39,485 nt of DNA from a virus. The stretch spans positions 1 through 39,485 of IMG/VR virus record IMGVR_UViG_3300045136_000292. One strand, given 5' to 3'. The notes under the pieces are model-generated. The model was given only the letters and a program-made list of their open reading frames with translations. It was not told where the DNA came from and ran no database searches. A program made the translations under genes and the position numbers. Below, piece after piece: positions 578-38,360 of the stretch (positions within the stretch are counted from its first letter, which is position 1; each line of letters opens with the position of its first letter).

Positions 578-637
578 ATCCTACACCCCTTTTCCTAGGT
601 AGTCAACCCCGGATACCAGTTTTCATCATTTTTTCAT
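578..637 (-). promoter_or_regulatory. promoter module P1 (leftward, SSB-like cassette)
   Basis: Read on the minus strand, an 18-bp A-rich element ATGAAAAAATGATGAAAA (620-637) is followed by 13 bp, TTGACT (601-606), 17 bp and TAGGAT (578-583). The same arrangement occurs at three other places (P2, P3, P4). The stop codon of dCTP deaminase lies inside the A-rich element. The expected transcript has a leader of about 90 bases before the SSB-like gene. Confidence 0.75.
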
Positions 638-1203
638 TTTTCGGTCGGTCGTACCCAGCCTTCGTAGATGTGTTTTAGCTCCCGCAGTATTTGGCCGCAG
701 GAAGGTATTGGAGCCTTCGGTTGGTCCTGGTATATTCCCTCGTATTCCGCCGGATAAGCTAGGTCAAACAGCAACACCTGACCTATACCTCGCCCAGCAA
801 TCAGCCTTATAGGATTCGGCGATAGGTTGCTCAACTCGATTGTGATATGCCCTTTCCACCCAGGCTCTAACGGCGTAGCGTTCACCAGTAAACCAAGCCT
901 TGCCCATGTAGACTTGCCTAGCACAATTCCTACCTTGTTTTTCGGCATATCGAAAAACTCCTCAGTAACAGCCAGCATAAGCTCATTAGGGTAAAGGACT
1001 ATAGTATTAGCTTCCACCGGCTTCCAAAGCGGCTCCTTGCCACCATATACAATCGGCTTTTTTGACCGCTTCATGGTGAGGAAACGGTTAGATAGTGTAA
1101 CGTCATATCCCGCTACACTCATACCCCTACTGGGCTTTTTCCCGTCGCCTTCCACGTACGGCTTCACAACGGACACCCACAAACTTTTGTCATTTACGAT
1201 CAT
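634..1203 (-). CDS. dcd: dCTP deaminase (Dcd/dUTPase family)
   Basis: The 189-aa protein matches dCTP deaminase over most of its length. Key blocks are GKSTWARLGL (residues 96-105, nucleotide-binding Ser and Arg), LEPGWKGHITIELSN (about 112-126), with E123 corresponding to the catalytic Glu of the family, and a C-terminal segment rich in Tyr and Gln that would close over the substrate. It converts dCTP to dUTP, or possibly on to dUMP as in bifunctional members; I cannot tell which. The length is normal for the family. The start has GGAGGT seven bases upstream. With ThyX and the kinase nearby it forms a thymidylate supply line. Its stop codon is embedded in promoter P1. Confidence 0.93.
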   Translation of the reverse strand: MIVNDKSLWVSVVKPYVEGDGKKPSRGMSVAGYDVTLSNRFLTMKRSKKPIVYGGKEPLWKPVEANTIVLYPNELMLAVTEEFFDMPKNKVGIVLGKSTWARLGLLVNATPLEPGWKGHITIELSNLSPNPIRLIAGRGIGQVLLFDLAYPAEYEGIYQDQPKAPIPSCGQILRELKHIYEGWVRPTEK

Positions 1204-1235
1204 CTTTTACCTCCACCTACTAATAATAGGGATAC

Positions 1236-1255
1236 CTAACCTAACCTAACCTAAC
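1236..1255. repeat. CTAAC x4 pentanucleotide tract
   Basis: Four perfect tandem CTAAC units sit in the 63-bp gap between the divergent dcd start and the small plus-strand gene, directly before the GGAG ribosome site of the latter. The same five-base period appears in the long array at 33186-33335, so the two may share an origin or a binding factor. Confidence 0.8.
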
Positions 1256-1266
1256 GGAGCTTTCAC

Positions 1267-1470
1267 ATGTACCAAAATGATATTCTCAAGGCCGTTGAGA
1301 TAATAGTCGAGGAGATACGCAAAGGCGACCTTGACCTAAAAGACTTTGTTCCCTTACTGAAAGCTTTCATCGATTCACCTCTGTTTGTAATCCTCGAAAA
1401 GTTATTGGAGAGCCGCCCAGTCTTACGTATAGCTTTGGTCATTCTCAAAGGTTATATAAAGAACCTATAA
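1267..1470 (+). CDS. small plus-strand protein of unknown function
   Basis: The 67-aa product is predicted to be largely amphipathic helix, with acidic residues in the first half and a more hydrophobic, basic second half ending in KGYIKNL. No family is recognised. The ATG at 1267 has GGAG seven bases upstream, and the gene is one of only three convincing genes on the plus strand. It points away from dcd and into the methyltransferase gene, overlapping its last codons by 6 bp tail to tail. A minus-strand reading of the same stretch is not supported by a ribosome site. It might be a small regulator, or a membrane-active peptide given the hydrophobic C-terminal half; neither is shown. Confidence 0.6.
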   Translation: MYQNDILKAVEIIVEEIRKGDLDLKDFVPLLKAFIDSPLFVILEKLLESRPVLRIALVILKGYIKNL

Positions 1471-2505
1471 CAGGTATAGATACTCGTATACAGCAGTCCT
1501 ACTCCTTATTTTACTGTATTCAGGGTGGGCTGTATACCTACTATGCTGTTTTTCTAATCTTTGCGCACCTAGGTCTCTTAGCATGGAATCTATTTCCTTC
1601 AAGTAACTTCCCTCATCGGAGTAACTAAACACAGACACGCCGCCCTTCCTTTTGATTCGTAGTGTTTCCTTTATATATTCCTCGATATATGCCAGCTTAT
1701 TCCTTGGCGTAGGTGGCGTATCATCTAGCTGATACTCACTAGGTACTAGGTTCGACACAATAGTATTATATACCGAGTAAACCCGTCTGTAAAGGGACAA
1801 ACTCTGATACGGTGGGTCGCTATAGATTACGTCAAAGCTTTCTGTAGGTATGGTCCTCAGTAACGCTAGTGCATCCCCGCAAAATACCTTGCTCTCTAAG
1901 TCAGGCCTGCGCATCCTGAAAAACTCATAGCTGGGATAAGGTAGGTAAACCGGCTTCCTTTTCTTAGCCGACTCCAGCTCCCTTTTGATAGGCTTAGTAA
2001 ACTTACCTGTATTACAAGCCGCTTTATCAGCAGCTACCAATAATAATCCGAATAAGACTATCTTATCATTGTAAGACAAGCTTTCACAAGCCGATATTTG
2101 ATCCGTGTACCAATCAATTCTGGACCGGTTATTCTCCGCGAAGAACGCACCGTGGTTCTCATTAGCCCACAATCTACCCTTATAGGCAACGCTTTCTTCG
2201 TCTACTTTACTGTTTAGCTTAGATAAGAACGCTTCTATCGCCGGATAGTCTATATCGTTTATCCCGGTTACGGCATACTTGGAAAACACATATGCATACG
2301 GTTCAATATCATTCGCTACAATGTCCTGGAAGTCGTTCCTAACCGTTGCCAGCATAATCCCGGTTCCAGCAAACGGCTCAAGGTAGGCTAGACCCTCCTG
2401 CTTTCTGGTATCTATTCGGTTGGTTATAACATATCTTATCCATTCACTCAAAGCTAGTTTCGAGCCACAATAGCGGACGTGGGGGAACCATACGTAGTTT
2501 ACCAT
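1465..2505 (-). CDS. D12-class adenine-N6 DNA methyltransferase
   Basis: The 346-aa protein has the hallmarks of Dam-like N6-adenine methyltransferases: RYCGSK near the N-terminus (residues 11-16), the SAM-binding motif EPFAGTGI (43-50) followed by ND (65-66), and the catalytic DPPY (230-233). Length and motif order fit the D12 alpha class. The target sequence cannot be read from the protein. No restriction endonuclease lies next to it, so it is probably an orphan enzyme that marks phage DNA, for example against host restriction. It starts 20 bp after ThyX stops and is likely cotranscribed with it. Its last codons overlap the plus-strand 67-aa gene tail to tail. Confidence 0.9.
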   Translation of the reverse strand: MVNYVWFPHVRYCGSKLALSEWIRYVITNRIDTRKQEGLAYLEPFAGTGIMLATVRNDFQDIVANDIEPYAYVFSKYAVTGINDIDYPAIEAFLSKLNSKVDEESVAYKGRLWANENHGAFFAENNRSRIDWYTDQISACESLSYNDKIVLFGLLLVAADKAACNTGKFTKPIKRELESAKKRKPVYLPYPSYEFFRMRRPDLESKVFCGDALALLRTIPTESFDVIYSDPPYQSLSLYRRVYSVYNTIVSNLVPSEYQLDDTPPTPRNKLAYIEEYIKETLRIKRKGGVSVFSYSDEGSYLKEIDSMLRDLGAQRLEKQHSRYTAHPEYSKIRSRTAVYEYLYLL

Positions 2506-2524
2506 GTTTACCTCCTGTTCGGTA

Positions 2525-3271
2525 CTATACTTTGTGATGTTCGCAGGTTAGAAAGCCGTCTCGTTCACCGTTACTTGTGTAGGTAAAGTCAAACACAAGC
2601 CAAGGTGACACGTGTTTTACGATCTCATAAATCTCCAAGGCAACCTGACGTATTTCCCAGTCCGCCTCCTTCGACCCCCTTTGCTCCAGGAAGTTACGGA
2701 CAGCTCTTGCGTTCATCGTTACCACCAACTCCGTCAGCGTACAAAGCGGTAGTAAGTACCTCGCAATACCGTTTGCCCACTTCCTTGGCTTTTCCTTAGA
2801 CAATTTTCCTTCGTGCACCTTATGCAACAACTTCTCGACTACCCTAATATAGCGATTGACCGCATCCCTGTAAACGTTCTTCACATCATCATGAGCCTCC
2901 TCGTCTTCAGGGAGCATTATACCTATCGGCTCACACCACCGAAGCGAACGCTCTGAATACGAACAACCGGCTCTATGTCGAATTATTTCGTGACTAGTAG
3001 CTCGACTACAGACAACAAGGAAGGTGTACACAACATGCTCTAGAACCGATCCGTGGCCTAGTTTGATTAGTTTTTGGAGATACTGTCTTCCGCTTTGACT
3101 ATGCGGGGGAAGGAAGCTGTCATAGCAAATCCTTCCAGCGGATTCCACTATCTTTGCTCCTACACTTTCATCAAAACTTAGACTGTCTATGTTTTTCACA
3201 CTCTCTATCGCCCCATCAACAGGAACAGTGTGTGCTATAAGAGTAACTTTGGGTCTGGAAAGTATGATCAT
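2525..3271 (-). CDS. thyX: flavin-dependent thymidylate synthase ThyX
   Basis: ThyX makes dTMP from dUMP with FAD, NADPH and methylene-tetrahydrofolate. The signature region RHRAGCSYSERSLRW is present, with one residue more between RHR and the conserved Ser than in the usual RHRX7S form. Other family blocks include AGRICYDSF near the N-terminus and an NARAVRNFLEQR segment for dUMP binding near the C-terminus. I chose the ATG at 3271 (248 aa). An open TTG at 3310 lies almost at the predicted transcription start of the promoter at 3313-3341, so it is unlikely to be used. The gene heads a short operon with the adenine methyltransferase. Confidence 0.93.
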   Translation of the reverse strand: MIILSRPKVTLIAHTVPVDGAIESVKNIDSLSFDESVGAKIVESAGRICYDSFLPPHSQSGRQYLQKLIKLGHGSVLEHVVYTFLVVCSRATSHEIIRHRAGCSYSERSLRWCEPIGIMLPEDEEAHDDVKNVYRDAVNRYIRVVEKLLHKVHEGKLSKEKPRKWANGIARYLLPLCTLTELVVTMNARAVRNFLEQRGSKEADWEIRQVALEIYEIVKHVSPWLVFDFTYTSNGERDGFLTCEHHKV

Positions 3272-3312
3272 AGTCAGTTGTCCCAGATAGTACCCTTCGC
3301 CCGTTTGCAATT

Positions 3313-3341
3313 ATTGTAGGTCGGAGCGGTAGGGGAATCAA
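3313..3341 (-). promoter_or_regulatory. sigma-70-type promoter of thyX
   Basis: On the minus strand TTGATT (3336-3341), 17 bp and TACAAT (3313-3318) make a good match to the bacterial consensus. Three 11-bp direct repeats lie just upstream. Transcription would begin near 3306 and read thyX and the methyltransferase gene. Confidence 0.65.
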
Positions 3342-3344
3342 CAT

Positions 3345-3377
3345 AAACTTTTCGTAAACTTTTCGTGAAGCTTTTGT
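3345..3377. repeat. three tandem 11-bp repeats upstream of the thyX promoter
   Basis: AAACTTTTCGT occurs twice in tandem (3345-3355, 3356-3366), followed by a diverged third copy GAAGCTTTTGT (3367-3377). An 11-bp period is about one helical turn, so the copies face the same side of DNA. They end 4 bp from the -35 box, which suits an UP element or activator site. Confidence 0.7.
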
Positions 3378-3391
3378 GAAGTCGGAATTTC

Positions 3392-4126
3392 CTACACTTT
3401 TTGGCCATCCTCAAACCTACTGACTATGCAGTCAGGGGATTCGGATAAAATGTCATTTACTTCTATCACCTTATAACCTATATCTACTCCTATCTTAGCT
3501 AGGTTATACTCTTCGTAAGTATTCAGTATAATGGAATCTAGCTCCTTATAATCGTAGTATTTCGTAAATAAGTTTCCTCCTGATAATCTTTTAGCTATCT
3601 CGTATTCGTCATCCTGAGTAATAGGTTTATTACGTTTAGTTTTCACAATCAGCCTAATATCGTCATATTCAGCTATTCCTTTCTCTATTTTCCTTGACAT
3701 ATACCTAAATAAGCTAGTGAATATACCTATTTCGTCCACTACGTTCTCAGGGAATAGGTTATATCTATTCCTTGCGTACCGTATCTTAGCTATCAGATAG
3801 GTAATACCATCGAAGCTTCTAGGGAATATAACAACCTTATAACCTTTAGACTCTTTTATCTCTCTTTCAACGTAACTGGCATATCTCGATATGTAGATTG
3901 ACTGATTAGCTAATTCTGATAATATCGTTCCTACTTTACCTATACTTGTTGGACTAAGTAAGCTAATAAGTATACCTAGATCATTATAGGTTGTATGTTC
4001 GTCCAACAGGTTATGATAGCTTATATCACATACCTTAGCTTTATCCTCTCCATAATAAGCCGCCAGTTTCTTAGCTAAACTACTTTTACCGGTATAGTGG
4101 GGACCGTAAAGTAAATAGACAATCAT
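3392..4126 (-). CDS. P-loop (deoxy)nucleotide kinase-like protein
   Basis: The 244-aa protein begins with a hydrophobic strand and a Walker A loop GPHYTGKS (residues 8-15), followed by a helix, as in thymidylate and deoxynucleoside (mono)phosphate kinases. A second strand-loop VIFPRSFDG (about 99-107) resembles the substrate-binding DR/ERS segment of those enzymes. The rest is not similar enough to name a substrate. Its position beside thyX suggests a dNMP kinase that feeds dTTP synthesis, but this is inference. It is the last gene of the leftward late operon before the thyX promoter and follows the tRNA-Arg gene. The ribosome site is weak. Confidence 0.6.
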   Translation of the reverse strand: MIVYLLYGPHYTGKSSLAKKLAAYYGEDKAKVCDISYHNLLDEHTTYNDLGILISLLSPTSIGKVGTILSELANQSIYISRYASYVEREIKESKGYKVVIFPRSFDGITYLIAKIRYARNRYNLFPENVVDEIGIFTSLFRYMSRKIEKGIAEYDDIRLIVKTKRNKPITQDDEYEIAKRLSGGNLFTKYYDYKELDSIILNTYEEYNLAKIGVDIGYKVIEVNDILSESPDCIVSRFEDGQKV

Positions 4127-4160
4127 AGGCCGTACTCTACGATCAATCTTACACCTTATC

Positions 4161-4233
4161 TGCTCTCGGAGGGACTCGAACCCCCAACCGACCGCTTAGA
4201 AGGCGGCTGCTCTGTCCATTGAGCTACGAGAGC
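4161..4233 (-). tRNA. tRNA-Arg (anticodon TCT)
   Basis: A full cloverleaf can be drawn. The acceptor stem is a perfect 7 bp (GCTCTCG/CGAGAGC), the D stem GCTC/GAGC, the anticodon stem GCCGC/GCGGT with loop CTTCTAA, and the T arm GGGGG-TTCGAGT-CCCTC. The anticodon TCT reads AGA. The 3' CCA is not encoded. The gene sits between the 122-aa gene and the kinase in the late operon. Confidence 0.95.
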
Positions 4234-4252
4234 CTCTACCAACCCGACCTAT

Positions 4253-4621
4253 TTATTGTAGTATGTCAGCTACTAAATCGTCAACCTTCTCCTTCTCTGA
4301 TATTTCGATAGCTAAATCTACTATCGTTTCAATAGGATGAAAAGGAGATATTTTCCTCCCAATCTTAGTGTGCGTGATTCCCTTTATACCTAGAAGTAGC
4401 TTTTGGGGAGATGATATTTTCCCCGATTCCTCCCGGAGCCAACTTATTACCAATTCCCTCTTTTTCTTACACTCCTCGGTTCCCCAACTGTCCATAGTTT
4501 CCTTCCTCTCCTTGCACTTACATCCTACTAACGCTGGTATACCAAGCCGTCTGAGTATTGCCTCTAATGCCGATCCAGGTTTGTTTAGGTAGGGATTGAT
4601 TGTCGGTTTTTCATACGACAT
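4253..4621 (-). CDS. small cysteine-motif phage protein
   Basis: The 122-aa protein contains GCKCKERKETMDSWG (about residues 33-47), then a further Cys and ISWLREES. This CxC...MNxWG...C...WLxEE pattern is seen in a family of uncharacterised phage proteins often found near tail and sugar-modification genes. The cysteines could bind a metal. The gene has a good GGAGG site and starts four bases after the phosphoribosyltransferase-HAD gene ends, so the two are probably translated together. Function unknown. Confidence 0.6.
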   Translation of the reverse strand: MSYEKPTINPYLNKPGSALEAILRRLGIPALVGCKCKERKETMDSWGTEECKKKRELVISWLREESGKISSPQKLLLGIKGITHTKIGRKISPFHPIETIVDLAIEISEKEKVDDLVADILQ

Positions 4622-4625
4622 TTTA

Positions 4626-5702
4626 CTAACCTCCTATCCTGAACACTATACCGGTTCGTTCTATAAAGGATACCTTTCTATCTGTGAATCTTTTGATTGA
4701 CCTGTGTTGTCTTAGTATAGTTTCCCAAGCTTCATCGGTATCCTTCCGAATGTCTTCACTCTCACAGTCTTTATCAGTAATAAGCTTTTTATCCTGTATA
4801 GACAGAACATACTTTTGCATCCCAAGCTTTTCCCTTAGTAGGTTGTGTACAATCCTGGCTTGTTTACCATCGCTTTCAACGAATAGGCCGTGTGAGGGGA
4901 ATGCGCTCCACATGCAGGTTGCTTTCCACGCCGATATAGCTTTGTAGTCATCCTTGCTTCCCCACCAGTCCGGCATTAGCATTAGGTTATCCCATAAAAC
5001 ACCAGCCCGATTTAGCTGCTCCTCTGTTACCTTCCTCTCCGATTCTAGCCTCCCTGAAACTATGTTTACTGGCTTTCTTCTAGGTACTAGGTACGGACTT
5101 AGGACATATTCCTCTTTTCCCCCAGAGGTTAGTATGTCATGAAGCAAAACTCCGTCCAGGTCAGTAACCAACCCACCACCACAATACTTACCAGACTCCA
5201 TGTCGAGATTTCCAGTTACCCAGTCACTATTCATCAAGTTCCATTCCAAAATATGAGGGGACTCCAGCACCTTAGCATAACCTGTTGTTATTCCCATTGA
5301 AACAAGCCGGTTATATCCCTCCGTTCTAGCATAAACGGAGCAAAACACTAGTTTATCTAGATTATATCCGTCTTTGTTGGATAGGCTTCTTACCACATTC
5401 TCAATAGCAAAGCCGTTGTATATAGTATCATCTACTATAGCTAGTCGTTTTTGAGGGTTGTATGTTAGATACCTAGGATTACTTGATCTCCAGCCGTTAG
5501 ATAGCCAAACTACCGTTCCGTTTTCCTTATCATACGATCCCAAAGGTAGATGGAGAACCGTAGATAGTATACTTGCTGGTATCATTCCTGACCTAGGTAT
5601 GCCGATTATACCACCTACGTCATTTTTGGTCAGGAAGTCTGATAGAAAAATCGCATCATTAGCAAGCTCCCCACAAGTTATCAGTCTAATTTCCTCGATC
5701 AT
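4626..5702 (-). CDS. phosphoribosyltransferase-HAD hydrolase fusion protein
   Basis: The 358-aa protein joins two enzyme domains. The N-terminal half is a type I phosphoribosyltransferase: GIPRSGM (residues 34-40) and the PRPP loop AIVDDTIYNG (88-97). The C-terminal half is a HAD-type phosphatase with the nucleophile motif TDLDGVL (180-186) and later VSGR and a WWGSKDDYKA segment fitting the other HAD motifs. Such pairs can handle sugar phosphates or nucleotides; the substrate is unknown. Its ATG overlaps the stop of the upstream beta-propeller gene (ATGA), so the two are coupled. The last 18 residues (341-358) repeat a motif found at the start of that neighbour. Its place after the tail genes suggests a role in surface or virion sugar chemistry. 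Confidence 0.75.
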   Translation of the reverse strand: MIEEIRLITCGELANDAIFLSDFLTKNDVGGIIGIPRSGMIPASILSTVLHLPLGSYDKENGTVVWLSNGWRSSNPRYLTYNPQKRLAIVDDTIYNGFAIENVVRSLSNKDGYNLDKLVFCSVYARTEGYNRLVSMGITTGYAKVLESPHILEWNLMNSDWVTGNLDMESGKYCGGGLVTDLDGVLLHDILTSGGKEEYVLSPYLVPRRKPVNIVSGRLESERKVTEEQLNRAGVLWDNLMLMPDWWGSKDDYKAISAWKATCMWSAFPSHGLFVESDGKQARIVHNLLREKLGMQKYVLSIQDKKLITDKDCESEDIRKDTDEAWETILRQHRSIKRFTDRKVSFIERTGIVFRIGG

Positions 5703-6826: not shown

Positions 6827-6828
6827 GG

Positions 6829-7950: not shown

Positions 7951-7953
7951 AAC

Positions 7954-8958: not shown

Positions 8959-8959
8959 G

Positions 8960-11242: not shown

Positions 11243-11254
11243 GGCTTGTAAGGA

Positions 11255-12150: not shown

Positions 12151-12167
12151 TCTATGTTACCTCCCTA

Positions 12168-12587: not shown

Positions 12588-12620
12588 TATCTTTTCCCCC
12601 TTTTTAGTAGGTTATTTTGC

Positions 12621-13259: not shown

Positions 13260-13777
13260 TCTCCTAGTATTAGCAATGTTATTTGTTTATTTACAGATGT
13301 ATGATTTTGTACCACTAAGTTTTTATTTGATCCAGTTACTTGGATCGAGTTGCCGACTAGTATACAAAATGGGAACAAGCTACTTACAGTAAACGCGGTT
13401 GTATTCAATCCCCACCCATCGAAGGTTGTGGAACCTCCGCCAACTCTAAACTCAGGGTTGCTAACGTCTCCACCGGATACGAACGCGATTATCGCTTTCA
13501 CATACCCCATACTCGTACTACTACAGGATGTTTCGTCATTTACCGAAGTCAGGTCAATAGTAGCGCTGTTTCCTGCGTTTAGGTTCACCTTTACAACGGC
13601 AAACCGACTTATACGGGTTGGGTCGTTTGTATTAGGTGTAGCGCTATAAGTAAAACCTGTTGGAATTACCAAGCTGTTCTCACCTATCGAAAACGAGTAA
13701 CCGTTCGTAGTCTTCAGTCCAGCGGAAAAACTTATGAATCCGTTTAGGGACAAGATAAAACTGTCTTTGGTTATCAT
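13256..13777 (-). CDS. putative virion protein
   Basis: The 173-aa protein is rich in Ser, Thr, Asn, Gly and Val with almost no long helices, as in beta-sandwich virion proteins. No domain is recognised. It overlaps both neighbours by four bases, inside the tail operon between the 180-aa tail protein and the tail tube pair. It could be a tail, tail-decoration or head-tail joining protein. Confidence 0.5.
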   Translation of the reverse strand: MITKDSFILSLNGFISFSAGLKTTNGYSFSIGENSLVIPTGFTYSATPNTNDPTRISRFAVVKVNLNAGNSATIDLTSVNDETSCSSTSMGYVKAIIAFVSGGDVSNPEFRVGGGSTTFDGWGLNTTAFTVSSLFPFCILVGNSIQVTGSNKNLVVQNHTSVNKQITLLILGD

Positions 13778-14316
13778 ACGTCACCTATGTAAAACCTAGT
13801 AGTAAGCTCCGCACCCTCAATTTGCCAGTTGGTATGCTGGTCTTCTATATTTTGTAGGTAAAAGTTAGCTATATCGACTCCTATAAGATTGTTCGTTCTT
13901 CTGGTCAATAATTCCTTTACCGCCTCAGCAACAAGCTCGTGGAACCAACCTATAGGACGGTATATGTTCAAGCTGTCTAGCCTAATAAGGTAGCTTATAG
14001 ATAAGGTTAGAGATAGCTGCCAGTGAGAAAAAGTAAACCGCTCTGTATTTCCGCCTTCAGGAGATATAATTAGTATCTTATTGTAATTTTCAAAGTAGTC
14101 TACAGCGTAAGGATAAAACTTTATCTCCTTATCTACATATCTCCAAAGCTTTCTGAATGCTAGTATATAAAGGTCTATGTTACTACAGTTTACATGTTCC
14201 TTATATATCACCACATCCTGATTAGGGAAGAAGCGGTAGCCCACGTTGCATAGCTTTTCAGTGAGTACCGCTCCTATATCGTTTAGTGCAATAAAGCTTT
14301 GTCGCCAATGCAGCAT
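13774..14316 (-). CDS. putative tail completion/terminator protein
   Basis: The 180-aa protein has mixed helix and strand, several aromatic residues and no recognised motif. It lies between the connector-type genes and the tail tube genes, where tail completion or terminator proteins are usually encoded. Its first 34 bases overlap the end of the protease gene, and its last bases overlap the next gene, so it is part of a tightly coupled run. The assignment is by position. Confidence 0.45.
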   Translation of the reverse strand: MLHWRQSFIALNDIGAVLTEKLCNVGYRFFPNQDVVIYKEHVNCSNIDLYILAFRKLWRYVDKEIKFYPYAVDYFENYNKILIISPEGGNTERFTFSHWQLSLTLSISYLIRLDSLNIYRPIGWFHELVAEAVKELLTRRTNNLIGVDIANFYLQNIEDQHTNWQIEGAELTTRFYIGDV

Positions 14317-15704
14317 AGTGGTAAACCTATAACTCTAGGTATATATCCGATTATAAACCTCAACAGCTCCTCATCATCCTCTCTAAGGATGTGGTAAAGA
14401 GCGTACCAGTCCTCATAATGATTATCTATCTTTTCGTTTACGTAAAGCTCAATAACTGTATCTATCTCATTCCCAAACCGGTCCACAACCTGGTTCAGCC
14501 AAATGCGGACGGAACCCTCGTCAATATCAGCCAAATGTTCCGGTAGGACTACTATCTTATATCTATTTACAACTTCGTTTACGCATCTTTCTATCAGCAT
14601 ATCTCTAAACTTTTTGCATAAGTTAGTTTTATTACCAAGCTTTTCAACCTGTGATATAAACCATTCGGTTCTGCATCCCCAGATAGTAGCAAAAGCGCCG
14701 GGTTTAACTCCACAGCAGACAGAGGATAGAAATTCACCGGTTTCCTTGAGGAATATACCTCCACCGGAATCACCATAGTAAACATTTAGCTTATATTGAA
14801 GTTGGTTTGCGGTTATAGCTTCAACCCAACCCTCCTCTACGTTCCCAGGTTTATCCGCACCCCATGCTGCGTGGAATACCTTGTCTCCCGGATTAGGAAG
14901 CTTACGTGCTACTTTGGCATACGGTATTGGGAACCCAGCTTTAGCAAGTCCCCTACTAACTAAAATAGCACCGTCGTTCGTATTGTTTGCCGAAACTACA
15001 ATCGCCTCAAACTTATATTTATTAGGTAAATGAGCAAGTTCGACCGAAAACCTTGTACCAATTCGACCGCAATGGGCAGCCGAGAATAAGTACCTTTCTC
15101 CATCTTTGGTCTGAAACTCCGTAATAGTAGCACTACAACCTACGCTATTAGTGTATATACGAACCGTTGCATGGATTGGATTGACATAATCCTTATTTGG
15201 TTCAGGCTTGGGAGGCTCCGGTTTTTCCTTATCATCATCCGGCCCTTTTTCGTCTCCCTTTTCAATCTTTATATCGACTACATGACGGAATATGGTAAAG
15301 TCATCTTTAGCAGCGTAGAAAGTCAACCTTTTAGTCTTATCTACGTCGGCTTTCTTTACTAGGTAAATATAGATTACGTTAGGACTGATACCTATAGTCT
15401 GTACGCTATCATCATCACACCAAGTAATCTTATAGCTAGGATCGGCCTTAGCTATAAGTAGGTCGCCAGCTTTTTTAGGATGAGAGATTATCTCGACTAC
15501 GATGCCGTCCCTAATAACGGCTGGGTCGACTAACGGCTTTTTGGTATGATGGGCTAGAGGACTGTTATAAACCTTGTCCTCTCTACCTAATGTGAAACCT
15601 AGTATGGAAACTGTAACAAATATACCGATAAATAAAGCGATAAACGACGAATATGCAGCGTATCTAGCAACTTTTGGCGGGATCATGTTACTATTACCTT
15701 TCAC
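14283..15704 (-). CDS. membrane-anchored trypsin-like serine protease
   Basis: The 473-aa protein (numbered from the GTG at 15704) has one N-terminal membrane helix (residues about 16-40), a beta-rich region (60-148), a charged Pro/Glu/Lys linker (150-172) and a chymotrypsin-fold protease. The catalytic triad is visible: FSAAHC (H211), TNDGAIL (D244) and GDSGGG (S313). A further 150 residues follow with a Cys pair near the end. The GTG overlaps the previous stop and lacks a ribosome site; an ATG at 15686 preceded by AAAGG is a good alternative. The topology suggests a protease held outside the inner membrane or built into the virion. Such an enzyme within the tail operon is unusual. Possible roles are virion maturation, attack on host surface proteins, or exclusion. 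Confidence 0.85.
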   Translation of the reverse strand: MKGNSNMIPPKVARYAAYSSFIALFIGIFVTVSILGFTLGREDKVYNSPLAHHTKKPLVDPAVIRDGIVVEIISHPKKAGDLLIAKADPSYKITWCDDDSVQTIGISPNVIYIYLVKKADVDKTKRLTFYAAKDDFTIFRHVVDIKIEKGDEKGPDDDKEKPEPPKPEPNKDYVNPIHATVRIYTNSVGCSATITEFQTKDGERYLFSAAHCGRIGTRFSVELAHLPNKYKFEAIVVSANNTNDGAILVSRGLAKAGFPIPYAKVARKLPNPGDKVFHAAWGADKPGNVEEGWVEAITANQLQYKLNVYYGDSGGGIFLKETGEFLSSVCCGVKPGAFATIWGCRTEWFISQVEKLGNKTNLCKKFRDMLIERCVNEVVNRYKIVVLPEHLADIDEGSVRIWLNQVVDRFGNEIDTVIELYVNEKIDNHYEDWYALYHILREDDEELLRFIIGYIPRVIGLPLCCIGDKALLH

Positions 15705-17789: not shown

Positions 17790-17808
17790 GTTTTATCCTC
17801 CTTATTCA

Positions 17809-23522: not shown

Positions 23523-23545
23523 ACTGTCTATCTCCTCCCTATCTA

Positions 23546-28966: not shown

Positions 28967-28975
28967 TGCTGCCTC

Positions 28976-29542
28976 CTATATCTCGTCCTCAAACAAATCC
29001 CCTAACATTCCGTTATCCTCATCACCTTCGTCATCATCATAGCTAAACATATCTTGCCAAGTATCGGACACACTATCTAAACTAATTGACTTATAGCGCT
29101 CAGCAAATTGCAGTATCTCACGGCATAGGAAAGTAGAATTACCGGCATACTTTATAAAAGTAATCACCCTATCTTTTTTTATAGCATAGTAATCATATCT
29201 AAGAACCGCTCTCCATACAACATGCATAGCTAAGTTTTCTATATCATCCCTACCTACCCATTTTATAAACGAAACACATTTTTGTTTTACGAAAACTTTC
29301 CAAATAAACGGAAAGTATATTTCGACTAATCTACTTACTATATTTGAAAACTTTTTATCATATTTACCTTTTTTATCCTTCAACACCTTGGGTAGTTTAC
29401 CTATACTGTACTGAACAAGCTCATTATCCTTTACACTATATCCGTACTTTTCCATAAAAGCTTTGCGCATAGAAAACAACTCAATCCAAAGATTATGCAC
29501 TTCTTCCGCCTTACAGTTTATGTTATGGCTACTACCTTCCAT
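28976..29542 (-). CDS. putative phage sigma-like transcription factor
   Basis: The 188-aa protein has a central helical region (about 65-150) that reads like sigma-70 region 2: RDDIENLAMHVVWRAVLRYD, then ITFIKYAGNSTFLCREI, followed by ISLDSVSD. This parallels the DLIQEG...RAVxxFD...FSTYAxxxIR...SLDxP order of sigma factors. No region 4 helix-turn-helix is seen, and the C-terminus is acidic with GDLFEDEI. Size and lack of region 4 resemble late-gene sigma factors such as T4 gp55. It could direct host RNA polymerase to late genes. The ribosome site GAGGAGGGG is strong, and the gene overlaps the helicase gene by 25 bp. A remote relationship only; not certain. Confidence 0.5.
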   Translation of the reverse strand: MEGSSHNINCKAEEVHNLWIELFSMRKAFMEKYGYSVKDNELVQYSIGKLPKVLKDKKGKYDKKFSNIVSRLVEIYFPFIWKVFVKQKCVSFIKWVGRDDIENLAMHVVWRAVLRYDYYAIKKDRVITFIKYAGNSTFLCREILQFAERYKSISLDSVSDTWQDMFSYDDDEGDEDNGMLGDLFEDEI

Positions 29543-30909: not shown

Positions 30910-30920
30910 AGGTCAATCAC

Positions 30921-32837: not shown

Positions 32838-33185
32838 GGTTCACCCTCCTTTGCTCCTTTATCGCCTGACTGATCGCTTACTGGGTTAGGCAGAGTTTAG
32901 TAGGTGGGCTGGAAAACGGTCCAGGGAGTATTGGGATATACCTTGAGCAGGAAAATCGATTATAAAGCGAATTAGACGGGAAAAACGGCATGTAGGATTT
33001 TCCGACAGTGAATTGTGAAGATTTGGTGAAAAACTGTTTGGTCGGCGAGATTTTCTCCAAAACACCGGCTTACCTAGACATACTAAGTTATGAGGAGGTG
33101 AGGTTGGGTCGAGGTAATTTATTGCGTCGATCATACCTAATTATCCTAACTATTACGTTATATTTGTCTAGCTTACTAAGTATAT
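32838..33185. other. non-coding leader between the pentamer array and the reductase gene
   Basis: No convincing gene is present on either strand. On the minus strand TATAAT (32959-32964) is a good -10 box, but no matching -35 lies 16-18 bp upstream. The remaining sequence shows no clear hairpin with a T-run. The reductase ribosome site GGAGGG lies at the left end. The stretch probably serves as leader or part of a replication or regulatory region. Confidence 0.4.
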
Positions 33186-33335
33186 CTACCTTACTTTACG
33201 TTATCTTACGTTATCTCGCCTTACCTTACCTTATCCTATCTTACCTCACTTTCTTTGCCTTATACTATCTTACGTCATCTTATATTATCCTATCTTACCT
33301 TATCTTACCTTACCTTACCTTATCTTACTTTTTAG
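33186..33335. repeat. degenerate pentanucleotide tandem array (TTACC/TTATC type)
   Basis: About 30 consecutive five-base units follow one another in register, mainly TTACC, TTATC, TTACG and TATCT (GGTAA/GATAA on the other strand), with some substitutions. The array covers the gap between the reductase operon and the 110-aa gene, whose stop codon lies in it. A five-base period places every second unit on the same DNA face. Repeats beside replication genes are typical of origin or partition sites. Confidence 0.85.
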
Positions 33336-33657
33336 CTAGACTTATCTTTATTTCGCTTATAACCTTATCACCTTTTATCTTATAAAGCTCCATGACTATC
33401 TTATTTTCCTCTTTTACCTTCCTAACAGTTAGCTCAGTATATATAGTTTCTTCCTCTCCATTTTCGTTATTTGTTAGCTTATTTACGTACTCACACCTAA
33501 ATCCGGTTACCTTACTCGCCGCCGCCGATTTACCGCCGCCGTCATCATCATCATCATCTTCGTCTGTAAGCTCATAAAGCCGGCCGTAGTTAGCCAACTC
33601 AGGATATAAGCCGAGTAAAGCCGCCAAATGTTCGATAGTAGTCTTGTAAACTTCCAT
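33325..33657 (-). CDS. small protein of unknown function
   Basis: The 110-aa protein has an N-terminal helix (IEHLAALLGLYPELANYGRLYEL), a run of seven Asp-rich residues with a Gly/Ala linker (33-47), and a C-terminal beta-rich charged part (FRCEYVNKL...ISEIKISLAKK). No family is recognised. It is the last gene of the cassette that begins at promoter P2. Its stop codon lies in the pentanucleotide array. Confidence 0.5.
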   Translation of the reverse strand: MEVYKTTIEHLAALLGLYPELANYGRLYELTDEDDDDDDGGGKSAAASKVTGFRCEYVNKLTNNENGEEETIYTELTVRKVKEENKIVMELYKIKGDKVISEIKISLAKK

Positions 33658-33793
33658 TTGACTATCTTCGTCTAACCTTTATCTACCCGCGCCCCAGCTT
33701 ACATACCGATTTGCGTCTTAGCTAAATAGAATACATGACCCACCCTCAGAGAGAGGGGGAATCGAAGTCTGCTATTATTGGTAGGTAAGCCGA
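33658..33793. other. intergenic stretch with a short inverted repeat
   Basis: CCCTC and GAGGG pair around five bases near 33742-33756. There is no following T-run, and the surroundings cannot be folded into a tRNA. No promoter matching the P1-P4 module is seen here. Confidence 0.35.
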
Positions 33794-34174
33794 CTATCTA
33801 TTTTCGCATACCAGCGGTACAATTTCGCCGCTTGCCACTCTAAATCCGAACAATACGCATTTATCTTTCCCATTATTTACGGTAATAACTACGTAACACT
33901 CGCTGTTTTCTTCATTACTTGAGATTTTTATAACCTTGTTACCTTCCTTGTACACTACTAACAAGTCTCCAGTTTCATTTACGTTAGCTGGCTCAATAAC
34001 TTCTATCTTATCAGGGTTTATAAGCCCTATCTTTTCAAACAACGCCGCTATTTCGCATAGCAGTACCTTGGCAGCCACCTTATCTTGCCGCCCTTTCGTC
34101 CATATTTTATCTAGTGATTGAGACTTTCCTAGGTCTGTTTCTTTTGTTGTAGCCAAATATCCCTCTATCCGCAT
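33794..34174 (-). CDS. small protein of unknown function
   Basis: The 126-aa protein starts at the ATG at 34174, which has an AAGGAGGAG site eight bases upstream; an open frame further upstream lacks such a site. It has a helical middle (KVAAKVLLCEIAALFEKIGL) and a beta-rich C-terminal half (LLVVYKEGNKVIKISS, CYVVITVNNG, CVLFGFRV). This helix-then-strands plan resembles that of the 104-aa and 110-aa neighbours, though sequence identity is too low to call them paralogues. Second-to-last gene of the P2 cassette. Confidence 0.5.
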   Translation of the reverse strand: MRIEGYLATTKETDLGKSQSLDKIWTKGRQDKVAAKVLLCEIAALFEKIGLINPDKIEVIEPANVNETGDLLVVYKEGNKVIKISSNEENSECYVVITVNNGKDKCVLFGFRVASGEIVPLVCENR

Positions 34175-34296
34175 ATTCTCCTCCTTATGAGCTGGTAGTT
34201 TGTAAGGCGAAGCCGCCGCAAGGCGGTCGTGCTCCCCACTTTTCCCAACTTTTCGCATCTTTGTTGGGTAGGTGAGGAGGCGGGGTGGGTAGGTAT

Positions 34297-34611
34297 TTAG
34301 CTTGCTATTTTAGTTTCGGTTAGGTGTTGGCGTATTCGTTGTATGATGTCGTCACCTTTTTGTACCAGTCCGCTTAGTATGATTCCGTTTTGTAGGCGTA
34401 TTTCGTAGGCGAAGCTTGTGGTGTAGACGGTCACCTTTGCTTTTGCTATGCCTACTGTTGCTAGGTGTAGGAAGGCTGCTGCGCATGCGCATTCTTTTAT
34501 CCAGTTTTTATCTTTTATTGATAATCCGAGCAGTACTTTGGCTAGCTTCAGTGTGTTTTCTGGACAGCCGTCAATCGGCAGTGCTAGGCTGATGCTTTCT
34601 GTGTTGACCAT
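34297..34611 (-). CDS. small protein of unknown function
   Basis: The 104-aa protein contains a Cys/Ala-rich helix (WIKECACAAAFLHLATVGIAKA) followed by strands (VTVYTTSFAYEIRLQNGIILSGLV) and a basic helix at the C-terminus. No family is recognised. GGAGG precedes the ATG at nine bases. Unlike its neighbours, the coding strand here is C-rich rather than G-rich, so strand composition flips locally. Confidence 0.5.
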   Translation of the reverse strand: MVNTESISLALPIDGCPENTLKLAKVLLGLSIKDKNWIKECACAAAFLHLATVGIAKAKVTVYTTSFAYEIRLQNGIILSGLVQKGDDIIQRIRQHLTETKIAS

Positions 34612-34651
34612 AGGTAAGCCTCCATACAGGTTGAGGGTGCGTTGGGCTGTC

Positions 34652-34918
34652 TTACTCTTCCACCTCTTTGACTTCTACTAGCACACCGTTATCGATTAGC
34701 TCTCGGTTGATCAACGCTGCTGTTTTGTCGGCCACTACCAGTGTGTTTGTGCGCAGTTTCTTCGGTAGCTTGCTGATGATTCCCTTCTTCTCCAGCAACT
34801 TGATCAATCCCTCGTCGATGTTTTCAAAGTAGTGTGTGCGGACTACCTTGTTGTCCTTAGTCTTCACTTTGGAGACTGTCCAGATAACCGTTGCCGTTGC
34901 CGCTGCCGTTGCCATCAT
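34652..34918 (-). CDS. small protein of unknown function, first gene of the P2 cassette
   Basis: The 88-aa protein has an Ala/Thr-rich N-terminus, a strand with VIWTVSKVKTK, a helix with GLIKLLEKKGIISKLPKK and an acidic end. No family is recognised. Strong AGGAGG site. It is the first gene downstream of promoter module P2, whose leader is purine-rich and contains a short (GACA)n run. Confidence 0.55.
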   Translation of the reverse strand: MMATAAATATVIWTVSKVKTKDNKVVRTHYFENIDEGLIKLLEKKGIISKLPKKLRTNTLVVADKTAALINRELIDNGVLVEVKEVEE

Positions 34919-34999
34919 TGTTTCGCCTCCTCGTTTAGGTATGCTTTGTCTGTCTGTCTGCCTTCGCTTCCTTGCTTCCTCTCCCTCGTCCTCACCAGT

Positions 35000-35059
35000 A
35001 TATTACCTCTTAGTAGGTAGGAAGTCAACTCCATTTTTCCATTTTCATCATTTTTTCAT
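35000..35059 (-). promoter_or_regulatory. promoter module P2 (leftward)
   Basis: Minus strand: the 18-bp element ATGAAAAAATGATGAAAA (35042-35059, identical to that of P1), 13 bp, TTGACT (35023-35028), 17 bp and TAATAT (35000-35005). The first transcribed bases (CTGGTGAGGA...) also resemble those of P3. The stop codon of the 132-aa gene is embedded in the module. Confidence 0.75.
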
Positions 35060-35454
35060 ACTTCCTCGTTCCGCCGCTTCCGTAAGGCTAGTTCCACTTC
35101 AGCCTTCAGCTCCCTACGCATAACGTCCCTTGGGGTCGTATCGAACCATGCCAGAAACACCTTGCATGCATACGGACTCCCTAACCTTAGATCAGCTCCC
35201 GCACACACGTTTGCAAAATATTCCTCCACTTCGCCCACCTTCGTCAACCTATGACCTCTCCAGCCGCAATAACCTATCGCACAAGCCGCTTCCACCTCAC
35301 GATCCATCAGGGATAATAACGGAGGCGGAGTAGTCGTAGAACCCTGCTGTAGGCTCGGATCATCGTTCTCCAGTCCGTAATACAACGCTTCCAGCGCCGT
35401 AGTCGATAACTCTGGAGCAATTCCCTCTCGCCAGACTTGCCTCCAAGGTTCCAT
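35056..35454 (-). CDS. small protein of unknown function
   Basis: The 132-aa protein is mostly helical, with a Thr/Pro-rich linker (about 41-46) and two segments containing Cys and Trp (ACAIGYCGWRGH and CKVFLAWFD), and a basic C-terminal helix. No family is recognised. It is the last gene of the P3 cassette and begins three bases after the 74-aa gene. Its final codon and stop form part of promoter P2. Confidence 0.5.
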   Translation of the reverse strand: MEPWRQVWREGIAPELSTTALEALYYGLENDDPSLQQGSTTTPPPLLSLMDREVEAACAIGYCGWRGHRLTKVGEVEEYFANVCAGADLRLGSPYACKVFLAWFDTTPRDVMRRELKAEVELALRKRRNEEV

Positions 35455-35457
35455 AGA

Positions 35458-35682
35458 TCAGCCCTCCATATCTAGGTGAGACTCGCCCCAATTGTCCCAT
35501 ACCACACCGTCCCAGTCCAAACACAAGTCAAGCGGCTGGTCACTATACCGCTCTGACTCAATCACGCTCTCTTCCCACATGCGATACGCCTCAGTATCGA
35601 ACATACAGTAGTCGCCCAGCAGCCTGTAAATATTCGGATCACCATAAAACTCGCTGTTGTGCATCATGACGTTGTCCTCCAT
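35458..35682 (-). CDS. small acidic protein of unknown function
   Basis: The 74-aa protein is acidic and rich in Trp, Tyr, Asp and Met, with CLDWDGVVWDNWGES near the end. The DWDGVVWDN part is reminiscent of the first HAD motif, but the protein is far too short for such an enzyme. Start supported by a GGAGG-type site. Small acidic phage proteins often act as inhibitors of host proteins; nothing here proves that. Confidence 0.5.
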   Translation of the reverse strand: MEDNVMMHNSEFYGDPNIYRLLGDYCMFDTEAYRMWEESVIESERYSDQPLDLCLDWDGVVWDNWGESHLDMEG

Positions 35683-35702
35683 ACTTAGGTCAGGATAGGT
35701 AA

Positions 35703-35736
35703 GGGAGGCTAGCCTAGCTAGGTAAGCTCGCCTCCC
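35703..35736. other. strong inverted repeat between two cassette genes
   Basis: GGGAGGC (35703-35709) pairs with GCCTCCC (35730-35736). After one mismatch three more pairs (AGC/GCT) extend the stem, leaving a 12-base loop. The enclosed sequence contains the palindrome CCTAGCTAGG. No T-run follows on either strand, so it may be an attenuator, processing site or protein-binding site rather than a simple terminator. Confidence 0.6.
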
Positions 35737-35772
35737 AGTTATCTGACGTTCACCGCCGGTATTGCTACCCTA

Positions 35773-36039
35773 TCATACCTCAACCTTCGTATAAGGTACG
35801 GTAGCCTTCACCGCCTTCTCGATCAACTTTGCCATATAACCGTACTCGTAAATCCGCACCACATCCTCACCGCGATTCCCAGCCTTCCATGCAGCTTTAC
35901 GGATATAGCTCCACTTCGTAACCACAGGATGCAACTGATTCATTGCCTTGACGATCCGGTCTACCATGCTAAGCGGGATCGTAAACACAGTCACATCATT
36001 CACCAGCTCCCGCCCCTTACGCAGCTCGATGCGGACCAT
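35773..36039 (-). CDS. small basic protein of unknown function, first gene of the P3 cassette
   Basis: The 88-aa protein is basic with an N-terminal strand, a helix (LSMVDRIVKAMNQLHP), a Trp/Lys/Arg-rich helix and a final VKATVPYTKVEV. No family is recognised; charge and size would suit a nucleic-acid-binding protein. It has a GGAGGT site preceded by a short AAAGT pentamer tract. It follows promoter module P3. Confidence 0.55.
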   Translation of the reverse strand: MVRIELRKGRELVNDVTVFTIPLSMVDRIVKAMNQLHPVVTKWSYIRKAAWKAGNRGEDVVRIYEYGYMAKLIEKAVKATVPYTKVEV

Positions 36040-36113
36040 AGCTACCTCCTAGACTTTACTTTACTTTACCTTGATTTAGCTCCGGATTCCCTTCCTCCAT
36101 CATCCTCACTAGT

Positions 36114-36173
36114 ATCTTACCTCCTAGCGGGCGAGAAGTCAACAGGAAAATTCCATTTTCATCATTTCTTCAT
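36114..36173 (-). promoter_or_regulatory. promoter module P3 (leftward)
   Basis: Minus strand: the 18-bp element ATGAAGAAATGATGAAAA (36156-36173), 13 bp, TTGACT (36137-36142), 17 bp and TAAGAT (36114-36119). Compared with P2 the similarity continues into the transcribed region. The stop codon of the 97-aa gene upstream lies in the element. Confidence 0.75.
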
Positions 36174-36463
36174 ATTTCCCCCCTCCCCGCTGAACAGCTA
36201 GACATCGGTGAAAATAACCATGCTCTCATAACCGGACCAGTATCACTACGTAAATTGACCCCAAACACCGGAAAAGACCCGAATGTGGTCATGTACCCCT
36301 TGCTCCTATCCGAAAACGGCGGGATAGGCGGTCCCTTATACTTGGCCGAATAAACAAACGTCCAAAAACGATCCGGTACCGCCCTCTCCAATAACCCCGC
36401 CACCTCAAACGGCGCCCCTCCAGCAACTCCCTCCACCTCCCTCACCACCAAAAAACTGTTCAT
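36170..36463 (-). CDS. MNSFLVV-family protein, short copy
   Basis: Starting at the ATG at 36463, which overlaps the stop of the 250-aa gene (ATGA) and has GGGAGGT upstream, the product is 97 aa. It begins MNSFLVVRE, almost the same as the 250-aa neighbour (MNSFLVVKE), and shares an aromatic WTFVYS/WSFAYR block, a PPF/LPFY turn and a later SFPVF/LFPSF block in the same order. It therefore looks like a shortened tandem duplicate. Function unknown. Confidence 0.55.
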   Translation of the reverse strand: MNSFLVVREVEGVAGGAPFEVAGLLERAVPDRFWTFVYSAKYKGPPIPPFSDRSKGYMTTFGSFPVFGVNLRSDTGPVMRAWLFSPMSSCSAGRGEI

Positions 36464-37212
36464 ACCACCGCCACCTCCCTGTCCCAAGGAAAATTACAAC
36501 TCAGTAAACCCTCCATCCGCTCCACACACACCCTCCACTCCCACAAAACACCTAGCCTCCCATAAGACACACCAGTAAACCGCCGATAACGAACGCGCAC
36601 CCCTCCAGCAGCCCAGCTACGACAATATACCCACCTCTCCAACATACCAAATATACCCACCGCTCCCCCACCCCTCACCCAAATAGCACAACACCCCTCC
36701 GGCCGCACCTCCACACAATCACCCACCTCCGGCAAACACTTCCCCCTGCCCGTAACACTATCAAAACTCTCCTCCCTAACTACGTCAGCATATAACCTCC
36801 AAGTCAATACGTGACCCACATAACGACTAAACTCAGGAACCACGTGCAAACAAGCCTTACTATACCGGCTCCGACCCTTGAATGTCTCTAGCATAAAGCT
36901 TTCAAACTCCCTCTCCACCTCCCTACCGTCACTACCTAGCTTGCCACCACACTCCCTGTACGCCTTACTAACATCATCCCAGCCCCTACCATAAACCGCC
37001 GGGACAAAGCTGGGAAATAAACTGCCGTCACTCCTAACATACTTCAACCTGTCCTTCCCATTGTCGTAAAAGGGAAGAATAACCTCATCATAACCCTCCC
37101 TGTACGCAAAACTCCACCTCCCCAGCTCATCTAGCCAAAGACGACCCACTACGTCCAGAAAATAAGGCTCGCCTCTCCCCGCTCCCTCTTTGACCACTAG
37201 GAAGCTGTTCAT
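36460..37212 (-). CDS. MNSFLVV-family protein, long copy
   Basis: The 250-aa protein is rich in Gly, Arg, Val, Trp and Cys. The coding strand is markedly G-rich and the gene has a higher G+C content than most of the genome, which may signal recent acquisition. The N-terminal 80 residues match the downstream 97-aa protein in block order. No family is recognised. It follows the tRNA-Ile gene and has a GAGGG site. It is part of the cassette that begins at promoter P4. Confidence 0.55.
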   Translation of the reverse strand: MNSFLVVKEGAGRGEPYFLDVVGRLWLDELGRWSFAYREGYDEVILPFYDNGKDRLKYVRSDGSLFPSFVPAVYGRGWDDVSKAYRECGGKLGSDGREVEREFESFMLETFKGRSRYSKACLHVVPEFSRYVGHVLTWRLYADVVREESFDSVTGRGKCLPEVGDCVEVRPEGCCAIWVRGGGAVGIFGMLERWVYCRSWAAGGVRVRYRRFTGVSYGRLGVLWEWRVCVERMEGLLSCNFPWDREVAVV

Positions 37213-37259
37213 CTACTACCCTCACCACAACGCATTCACCAAATCTTCACATTACCTAC

Positions 37260-37333
37260 TAGTCCGGCTGGGACTCGAACCCAGAACCTTCGGCTTATAA
37301 GGCCGACGCTCTCGCCTGTTGAGCTACCGGACA
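37260..37333 (-). tRNA. tRNA-Ile (anticodon TAT, reads AUA)
   Basis: The cloverleaf has a D stem GCTC/GAGC, anticodon stem TCGGC/GCCGA with loop CTTATAA, T arm CTGGG-TTCGAGT-CCCAG and acceptor stem TGTCCGG/CCGGACT. Only the terminal 1-72 pair is a T-T mismatch. Anticodon TAT reads the Ile codon AUA. The 3' CCA is not encoded. It lies between the 152-aa and 250-aa genes. Confidence 0.88.
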
Positions 37334-37792
37334 TTACGTATCCAGGAATGTTACGATATGTAAGCTTCCCAGTCCGTCATATACATGTTTTAGCGTATCA
37401 TATAGCCTCTTGCAGTCATCAGTAAGGTCATCGTATGTTGCTGTAAAGTATCTCTCCTCTTGTTCATTGTAACCTGACCAGCCAGTGTCGCCCAGCCATA
37501 TGTTAGCTAGCAGTCTTATACTTAGATACTTTCTGTAATCCTCCCAGCTTTCCCAGTCTTCGTTTATACCAGGGAAGAAGTACTCGACACACCTTCCAGT
37601 ATCTGATCCGACATACACCTCCCCGCAAAACTGGTAACAATCCTTAGCTCCACATATACCTACATCGTAAGATTCAAACTCGTCTGGTACCACAAAAAGA
37701 CGGACAAACATGCCGCCTTCCTTAGTATCTTTGTATCGACTATCTCCTATAGGGAACCTTACACCACCAGCAACCTTGTGCGTTCTGCGCAT
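37334..37792 (-). CDS. protein of unknown function
   Basis: The 152-aa protein is acidic and rich in Tyr, Asp, Gly and Cys, with three Cys at about 46-55 (GICGAKDCYQFCGEVY), a WESWEDYRKYLSIRLLANIWLG helix and a C-terminal helix. No family is recognised. It starts one base after the stop of the 154-aa gene, whose last codons supply its GAGGAGG site, so the two are coupled. The tRNA-Ile gene follows directly. Confidence 0.5.
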   Translation of the reverse strand: MRRTHKVAGGVRFPIGDSRYKDTKEGGMFVRLFVVPDEFESYDVGICGAKDCYQFCGEVYVGSDTGRCVEYFFPGINEDWESWEDYRKYLSIRLLANIWLGDTGWSGYNEQEERYFTATYDDLTDDCKRLYDTLKHVYDGLGSLHIVTFLDT

Positions 37793-37793
37793 A

Positions 37794-38258
37794 TCATGCC
37801 TCCTCGGCGCCCTTGATCAGCTCCTCCATCTTAGACCAGAACCTTTCCTCCCTTTTTTCAGGTGTAAAAAGCCAGCCGAACCGCTCCTGTACCATTCCTT
37901 TAGGACTACTTACGCAGACTAGTATGTTACTGTCGTATTTTATTGAGATACTAATCTCATATCCCAATCTACCGGCAGATTCCAGACATACGGAGATAGA
38001 CTTATCACTAACTTGCATGTTATAGGTTCTATCCTTAGACCGCTTACTTAGCTTGTCCTCCAACAAGGCTAGAAACTTTAGGAATATGTTTTTTACAGTA
38101 GTATAATTGCTAAGATATGTCTCAACCCACGTCCTAACACTGCTCGCCTTTTCCTCCCAAGTATAGTTACCGCAGACTGCGCATAATCTTTCCGAGAAGA
38201 CTTTATTGCTGCCGTACATATTGACCATGTAGTCATAGTACCTATACTCGGTCACCAT
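37794..38258 (-). CDS. protein of unknown function, first gene of the P4 cassette
   Basis: The 154-aa protein has a Tyr-rich N-terminus with CAVCGNYTW, a helix-rich middle and a beta-rich segment (SISVCLESAGRLGYEISISIKYDSNILVCVSS). No family is recognised. A GGAGCTAG site precedes the ATG. It is the first gene downstream of promoter module P4 and is coupled to the 152-aa gene. Confidence 0.5.
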   Translation of the reverse strand: MVTEYRYYDYMVNMYGSNKVFSERLCAVCGNYTWEEKASSVRTWVETYLSNYTTVKNIFLKFLALLEDKLSKRSKDRTYNMQVSDKSISVCLESAGRLGYEISISIKYDSNILVCVSSPKGMVQERFGWLFTPEKREERFWSKMEELIKGAEEA

Positions 38259-38301
38259 AGCTAGCTCCTAGGCATGCGTTGCTCTTTTACCTTACACCGG
38301 T

Positions 38302-38360
38302 ATTTTAGCTCACCTGATTGCGCAGTCAACCCAGAAAAACGAATTTCATCATTTTCTCAT
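38302..38360 (-). promoter_or_regulatory. promoter module P4 (leftward)
   Basis: Minus strand: the element ATGAGAAAATGATGAAAT (38343-38360), 13 bp, TTGACT (38324-38329), 16 bp and TAAAAT (38302-38307). It is the most diverged copy but keeps the 13-bp spacing. Confidence 0.7.

Follow-up and report, generated by a model that had tools for sequence, protein, structure and literature searches.

The stretch of environmental phage DNA analyzed here, IMG/VR record IMGVR_UViG_3300045136_000292 (the window hereafter denotes this whole stretch of 39,485 nucleotides), contains four composite units on the minus strand, each consisting of an 18-bp box, 13 bp, TTGACT, 16–17 bp and a −10 box. Judged from their sequences, the units are almost certainly promoters with a constrained upstream element, and they probably have a double role, as strong early switches and as seams at which blocks of genes are exchanged. 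On re-reading the sequence, all four were found on the minus strand where the original prediction had placed them (Table 1), with the order of elements and the gap as claimed: 13 bp separate the box from TTGACT in 4 of 4 units, the −35/−10 spacer measures 17, 17, 17 and 16 bp in units 1, 2, 3 and 4, and the −10 boxes (TAGGAT, TAATAT, TAAGAT and TAAAAT, respectively) follow the pattern TANNAT. As expected for sigma-70-type promoters, the two hexamers match TTGACA/TATAAT at 9–10 of 12 positions in all units, with a spacing of 16–17 bp. The genome holds just four copies of the core AAATGATGAAA, each followed by N14-TTGACT; composites are expected by chance approximately 8e-6 times per genome (order-3 Markov model), a reversed-pattern control gave 0 matches, and a fifth unit was not found in the window by a position-weight scan.

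Between units, 15–18 of 18 positions are identical in the box and 6 of 6 in the −35 hexamer, versus 3–7 of 13 in the gap, 3–6 of 16 in the −35/−10 spacer (except for units 2 and 3, with 10 of 16) and 10–17 of 49 in the upstream flank; the leader, unlike the box, is mostly not conserved. Within the box the T and G positions are invariant, which a model based on A-richness only would not need. The gap had been described as constant in length and variable in sequence. The constant length held, and the sequence varies but is not wholly free, since a G directly precedes TTGACT in all units and an A/T run, which unit 1 lacks, lies at about −45 to −41 in units 2–4. Since units 2 and 3 nearly duplicate each other (77% identity over 92 bp), selection on the box and its distance is supported by about three independent lineages, not four.

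With TTGACT set at −35 to −30, the box spans −66 to −49, its center near −58. It can be read as two ATGARRA heptamers (box positions 1–7 and 12–18), head-to-tail and exactly 11 bp apart (permutation P = 0.0013 for the heptamer repeat at this offset, P = 0.018 for any such repeat), with half-site identities of 7/7, 7/7, 6/7 and 5/7 in units 1, 2, 3 and 4. To our knowledge, ATGARRA matches no known regulator half-site. In its 18-bp length, its two direct repeats spaced 11 bp apart and its position upstream of −35, the box resembles the class I sites of the OmpR/PhoB family, such as the ArcA box, an 18-bp site with two direct repeats 11 bp center to center (PMC3798270); class I activators bind upstream of −35 and contact the C-terminal domain of the alpha subunit (alpha-CTD; PMC3335776). 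It is unlike these sites in that its spacing is rigid in all four copies.

The original prediction held that one protein touches the box and RNA polymerase together, either the alpha subunit, as at an UP element, or an activator. That the box is a non-canonical UP element, its A-tracts bound directly by alpha-CTDs with no additional protein as at T4 early promoters, has a real but minority chance of being correct. The A-tracts are centered at about −60.5 and −50.5, and units 2–4 add an A/T run near −43, with roughly one turn between successive tracts; the region from −66 to −36 is A+T-rich (61–74%, versus a background mean of 57%), and T4 early promoters join UP, −35 and −10 elements and use the host polymerase immediately after infection (PMC2988021). 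However, matches to the UP consensus NNAAAWWTWTTTTNNNAAANNN at its canonical register, −59 to −38, were at background (5, 7, 4 and 5 of 14; background mean 4.9, 95th percentile 8), and the box reaches upstream of the usual UP limit and carries the invariant T and G. The proximal A-tract (about −46 to −38) matches at 6 of 8 positions in unit 2, is represented by A/T runs with a poor consensus match in units 3 and 4, and is absent from unit 1. Predicted bend fell at the 97th, 97th, 48th and 9th percentiles, and common curvature was rejected as the signal in the box because the bend differs among units. Given the background-level UP matches, the unshared bend, the direct ATGARRA repeats, the ArcA-like architecture and the class I position, we consider a specific activator, working together with alpha-CTD, more likely than a pure UP element. 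Of the two proteins originally proposed, alpha at a canonical UP element thus lost ground (4–7 of 14), and a candidate activator gained some from the class I-like architecture.

A search of IMG/VR for the box, gap and TTGAC matched 60 contigs, of which only one (G001; L020 in the search) combines box, gap, −35, −10 and extended similarity; the rest look like chance or coding matches. A stricter composite returned only this contig from IMG/VR and five unrelated, chance-like matches from GTDB genomes. When the gap was left variable (5–27 bp seen), a gap of 13 bp occurred only in G001, and the frequent gaps of 6, 9, 12 and 15 bp looked like coding contexts. No relatives were found in IMG/VR by terminase, the 16 phage contigs besides G001 found via ribonucleotide reductase contain no unit, and known phages showed neither DNA similarity to the window beyond tRNA nor a match for the module proteins tried. 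A further contig family (L106, L111, L116 and L127) carries ATGAAAAAATGATGAA, a 15-bp gap, TTGACA and a good −10-like box; this pattern may be a short open reading frame (ORF; MMNTRNKDLDKLIKVS) rather than a promoter unit.

G001 is a 71,120-bp phage contig of 34.8% guanine-plus-cytosine (GC) content, distant from the window phage, with which it has in common a few proteins at 24–55% identity (ribonucleotide reductase 36%, ThyX 45%, an orphan protein 51%) plus patches of 95–100% identical DNA. Its unit equals unit 3 save for a few substitutions, with a box within the consensus and the −10 box TAATAT. This copy is a recent transfer, so it lends no independent comparative support to the function of box or gap. 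The proposed check for the 18-mer, 13 bp and TTGAC in relatives accordingly turned up a conserved copy and not independent conservation.

The G001 unit lies at one end of a 1.75-kb block (13326–15081) of 51% GC, versus 34.8% for the genome, which coincides with the 1.75-kb stretches of highest GC in that contig. At its upstream end the block opens with 39 bp that match the unit 4 leader at every position, beginning near +3 and reaching the start codon; in G001 this leader is not preceded by such a promoter and is followed by a different gene (257 residues). At the other end is the unit-3-type promoter, up to about +1. Within the block are the tRNA-Ile segment, 98% identical to that of the window, and a 230-residue gene whose 5′ part matches the 36170–36487 ORF of the window (92% protein identity over 84 residues); the two pieces of the window segment that ends just past the unit 3 −10 box (Table 1) are split in G001 by approximately 415 bp absent from the window. 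Both ends of the block therefore coincide with start-site positions, in this one case. The block is a foreign module that stretches from one start site to another and holds the following promoter at its 3′ end, and its base composition suggests that G001 was the recipient. Thus, the idea that the units allow cassettes to be swapped is borne out for exchange itself, in one example, and not for a cassette that begins with its promoter, as the promoter sits at the 3′ end of the module. In the same region of the window, the 36170–36487 and 36460–37212 ORFs are adjacent paralogous orphan genes; compared with its G001 relative the former is missing approximately 415 bp, and most of the latter is absent from G001. 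Units 3 and 4 have a common translation start context, CTAGGAGNTAGCTATGG (36049–36055 and 38268–38274), which is present once in G001 (15043–15081).

The window ends in an exact 127-bp terminal direct repeat (1–127 = 39359–39485), which gives a circular map of approximately 39,358 bp on which coordinates 578 and 38302 are neighbors; 127 bp is a common assembler k-mer length, and the record behaves as a closed circular map. On this map unit 4 follows unit 1 at a distance of 1,635 bp, and all four stand in tandem within 4,936 bp, in the transcription order 1, 4, 3, 2 (at 0, 1635, 3822 and 4936 bp). As had been noted, the gene map of the region shows each unit heading a short cassette of small genes; these modules consist of small orphan genes plus one tRNA-Ile. 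Past unit 2 the minus strand leads to ribonucleotide reductase, a primase/polymerase-like protein and DNA polymerase, and the capsid, portal, terminase and tape-measure genes are sited elsewhere than the promoter array. This position suggests that the units are early (pre-replicative) promoters.

Two further explanations are improbable, to about the same degree. In the first, the units are recent copies of one promoter spread by duplication and recombination, with box and gap inherited rather than selected. The near-duplication of units 2 and 3, the arrival of the G001 copy in a transferred block, and the deletions and mosaic joints of the region are consistent with this. Between units 1, 4 and the 2/3 pair, however, gap and spacer have largely diverged and the box still retains 15–18 of 18 positions; without selection, an 18-mer beside such a gap should have changed to the same extent, and the length of the gap should have drifted. 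The second makes the box an operator, bound by a phage repressor or an early shut-off protein, and not an activator site. Phage repressors are known to use multiple dispersed identical sites, such as the L5 stoperators (mentioned in PMC3203893), but the sites here are found only at promoters, beyond the core promoter (−66 to −49), and always share one phase and one orientation. Non-consensus promoter elements (TTGACT, TAGGAT) would profit from help, and neither a repressor nor an integrase was recognized in the proteins searched.

The units were also said to overlap or abut the end of the previous gene, and they do: in units 1–3 the upstream ORF ends within the box, its TGA stop occupying box positions 2–4, and in unit 4 the upstream gene ends 6 bp short of the box. 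Two of the reading frames meet a stop inside the box. In unit 3 the overlap arose through a deletion: compared with G001, approximately 415 bp are missing at a 12-bp repeat, and the frame has shifted as a result; the longer G001 gene (230 residues) stops at a TAG about 24 bp before the box. Since the unit 3 overlap stems from a deletion and frame change and the unit 4 stop lies outside the box, the stop-codon overlap is best read as incidental. A minigene, ATG-RRR-AAA-TGA, and an 8-codon frame ending in the −35 box were likewise considered coincidental (no ribosome-binding site in units 1 and 4). It is very improbable that the box works in a read-through transcript of the preceding module, as an RNA signal or a signal for the end of a gene (a stop cluster, minigene or processing site), rather than as a DNA site: three of four boxes do hold a stop, and every unit keeps open a short frame, ATGATGAAA...TGA, that ends in the −35 box, but the stop positions in unit 4 and in the intact G001 gene, the origin of the unit 3 overlap, the lack of a preceding ribosome-binding site at the boxes of units 1 and 4 and the lack of an Rfam match all speak against it, and it leaves the fixed DNA phasing to −35 unexplained.

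Several observations weigh against an activated promoter array that is also a set of exchange seams. With units 2 and 3 being duplicates there are only about three independent observations, and the sole other copy, in G001, was recently transferred. Two of the four −10 boxes (TAGGAT, TAAGAT) are mediocre, a general promoter scan of the unit region gave 17 matches versus 16.0 in shuffles, and the half-site repeat decays in unit 4 (5/7). No activator gene was recognized among the phage proteins searched, and the structures predicted for the proteins encoded first after units 2 and 3 could be matched to no known fold with confidence; an activator among the early small proteins was thus a candidate rejected for want of a family or a confidently matched fold. 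Being a metagenomic contig, G001 could be a chimeric assembly, but it is unlikely that two misjoins would coincide at points that make biological sense.

With these points taken into account, the best explanation as a whole, which we hold tentatively and at slightly less than even confidence, is an array of early promoters, activated in a class I-like manner, that double as exchange seams. In this tailed phage with its circular map, four tandem host sigma-70-type promoters would stand at the head of small-gene modules in what is probably the early region, and each would have an 18-bp recognition element at about −66 to −49 in fixed rotational phase to −35. A sequence-specific protein, either a host regulator or a phage or virion factor, would bind the two ATGARRA half-sites on one face of the DNA and help recruit RNA polymerase, probably through alpha-CTD, and alpha may additionally contact the A/T run near −43 in units 2–4. 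Promoter and leader stretches recur and could for this reason serve as homologous seams for module exchange from start site to start site. A bolder version, in which a new activator, host or virion-borne, reads the direct-repeat box and the promoter-leader seams trade modules between phages of very different base composition, is conceivable but rather unlikely.

Other features of the window were recorded. The first gene after unit 1 (3–482) encodes a 159-residue protein with a basic N-terminus and an acidic tail ending in DDDVPF, which resembles the tails of single-stranded DNA-binding proteins. There are two tRNA genes, for Arg (TCT, 4161–4233) and for Ile (Table 1), the latter within the exchanged module. 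In a 190-bp intergenic gap, an array of imperfect repeats of about 10 bp (TTACCTTATC-like, plus strand) occupies 33177–33343; an iteron-like replication origin or a leader array is possible.

Table 1. Coordinates of the promoter units and associated features in the window.
Feature	Coordinates	Strand	Remarks
Unit 1 core promoter, TTGACT-17-TAGGAT	578–606 (TTGACT 606–601)	−	reads toward the 3–482 ORF
Unit 1 upstream box, ATGAAAAAATGATGAAAA	620–637	−	contains stop codon of the 634–1203 ORF
Unit 2 core promoter, TTGACT-17-TAATAT	35000–35028 (TTGACT 35028–35023)	−	reads toward 34652–34918, small ORFs and replication/nucleotide genes (ribonucleotide reductase, DNA polymerase)
Unit 2 upstream box, ATGAAAAAATGATGAAAA	35042–35059	−	contains stop codon of the 35056–35454 ORF
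Segment approximately 95% identical to G001	36109–36525	−	ends just past unit 3 −10 box; pieces 36109–36230 and 36219–36525
Unit 3 core promoter, TTGACT-17-TAAGAT	36114–36142 (TTGACT 36142–36137)	−	near-identical copy at G001 13331–13359
Unit 3 upstream box, ATGAAGAAATGATGAAAA	36156–36173	−	
tRNA-Ile segment (anticodon TAT, 37260–37333)	37235–37332	−	98% identical to G001; in exchanged module
Unit 4 leader, about +3 to start codon	38255–38293	−	39/39 identical to G001 15043–15081
Unit 4 core promoter, TTGACT-16-TAAAAT	38302–38329 (TTGACT 38329–38324)	−	
Unit 4 upstream box, ATGAGAAAATGATGAAAT	38343–38360	−	6 bp past TAG of the 38367–39086 ORF
Direct repeat of 1–127	39359–39485	.	circular assembly overlap joining unit 1 to unit 4

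Among known systems, the early promoters of Escherichia phage T4 are the closest functional analogue of the units, and the promoter early stem-loops (PeSLs) the closest analogue for exchange. PeSLs are said to have been described by Arbiol in 2010 and by Comeau in 2014. As cited in PMC4503421, they are mobile regulatory cassettes of T4-type phages; on that account, the units are like PeSLs in being early-type promoters repeated at module borders and tied to the shuffling of modules between phages, and unlike them in the type of phage and in the layout of the exchanged block, which stops at the start site and so has the promoter in its 3′ part. No terminator-like hairpin, the stem-loop of a PeSL, was found on the minus strand near the four units. 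With T4 early promoters the units have in common the host sigma-70 polymerase, a conserved sequence upstream of −35 and many copies (PMC2988021); they differ from the UP/−35/TGn/−10 arrangement in having a specific 18-mer that fails the UP consensus and lies further upstream (−66 to −49), no TGn and a weaker −10. The start-associated sequences (SAS/ESAS) of Cluster K mycobacteriophages are likewise short, conserved and repeated, all in one orientation, and many non-structural genes are preceded by one (PMC3203893), but SAS sit 3–7 bp before start codons at the ribosome-binding site, whereas the box in the window lies upstream of a promoter.

If the units act as proposed, the window would offer a clear non-T4-like example of promoters doubling as exchange seams, in which the foreign block is still recognizable by its base composition (51% versus 35% GC) and both junctions are mapped to start-site positions. 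It would also offer a compact, testable upstream element, for which the alpha subunit and a new activator are the candidate partners.

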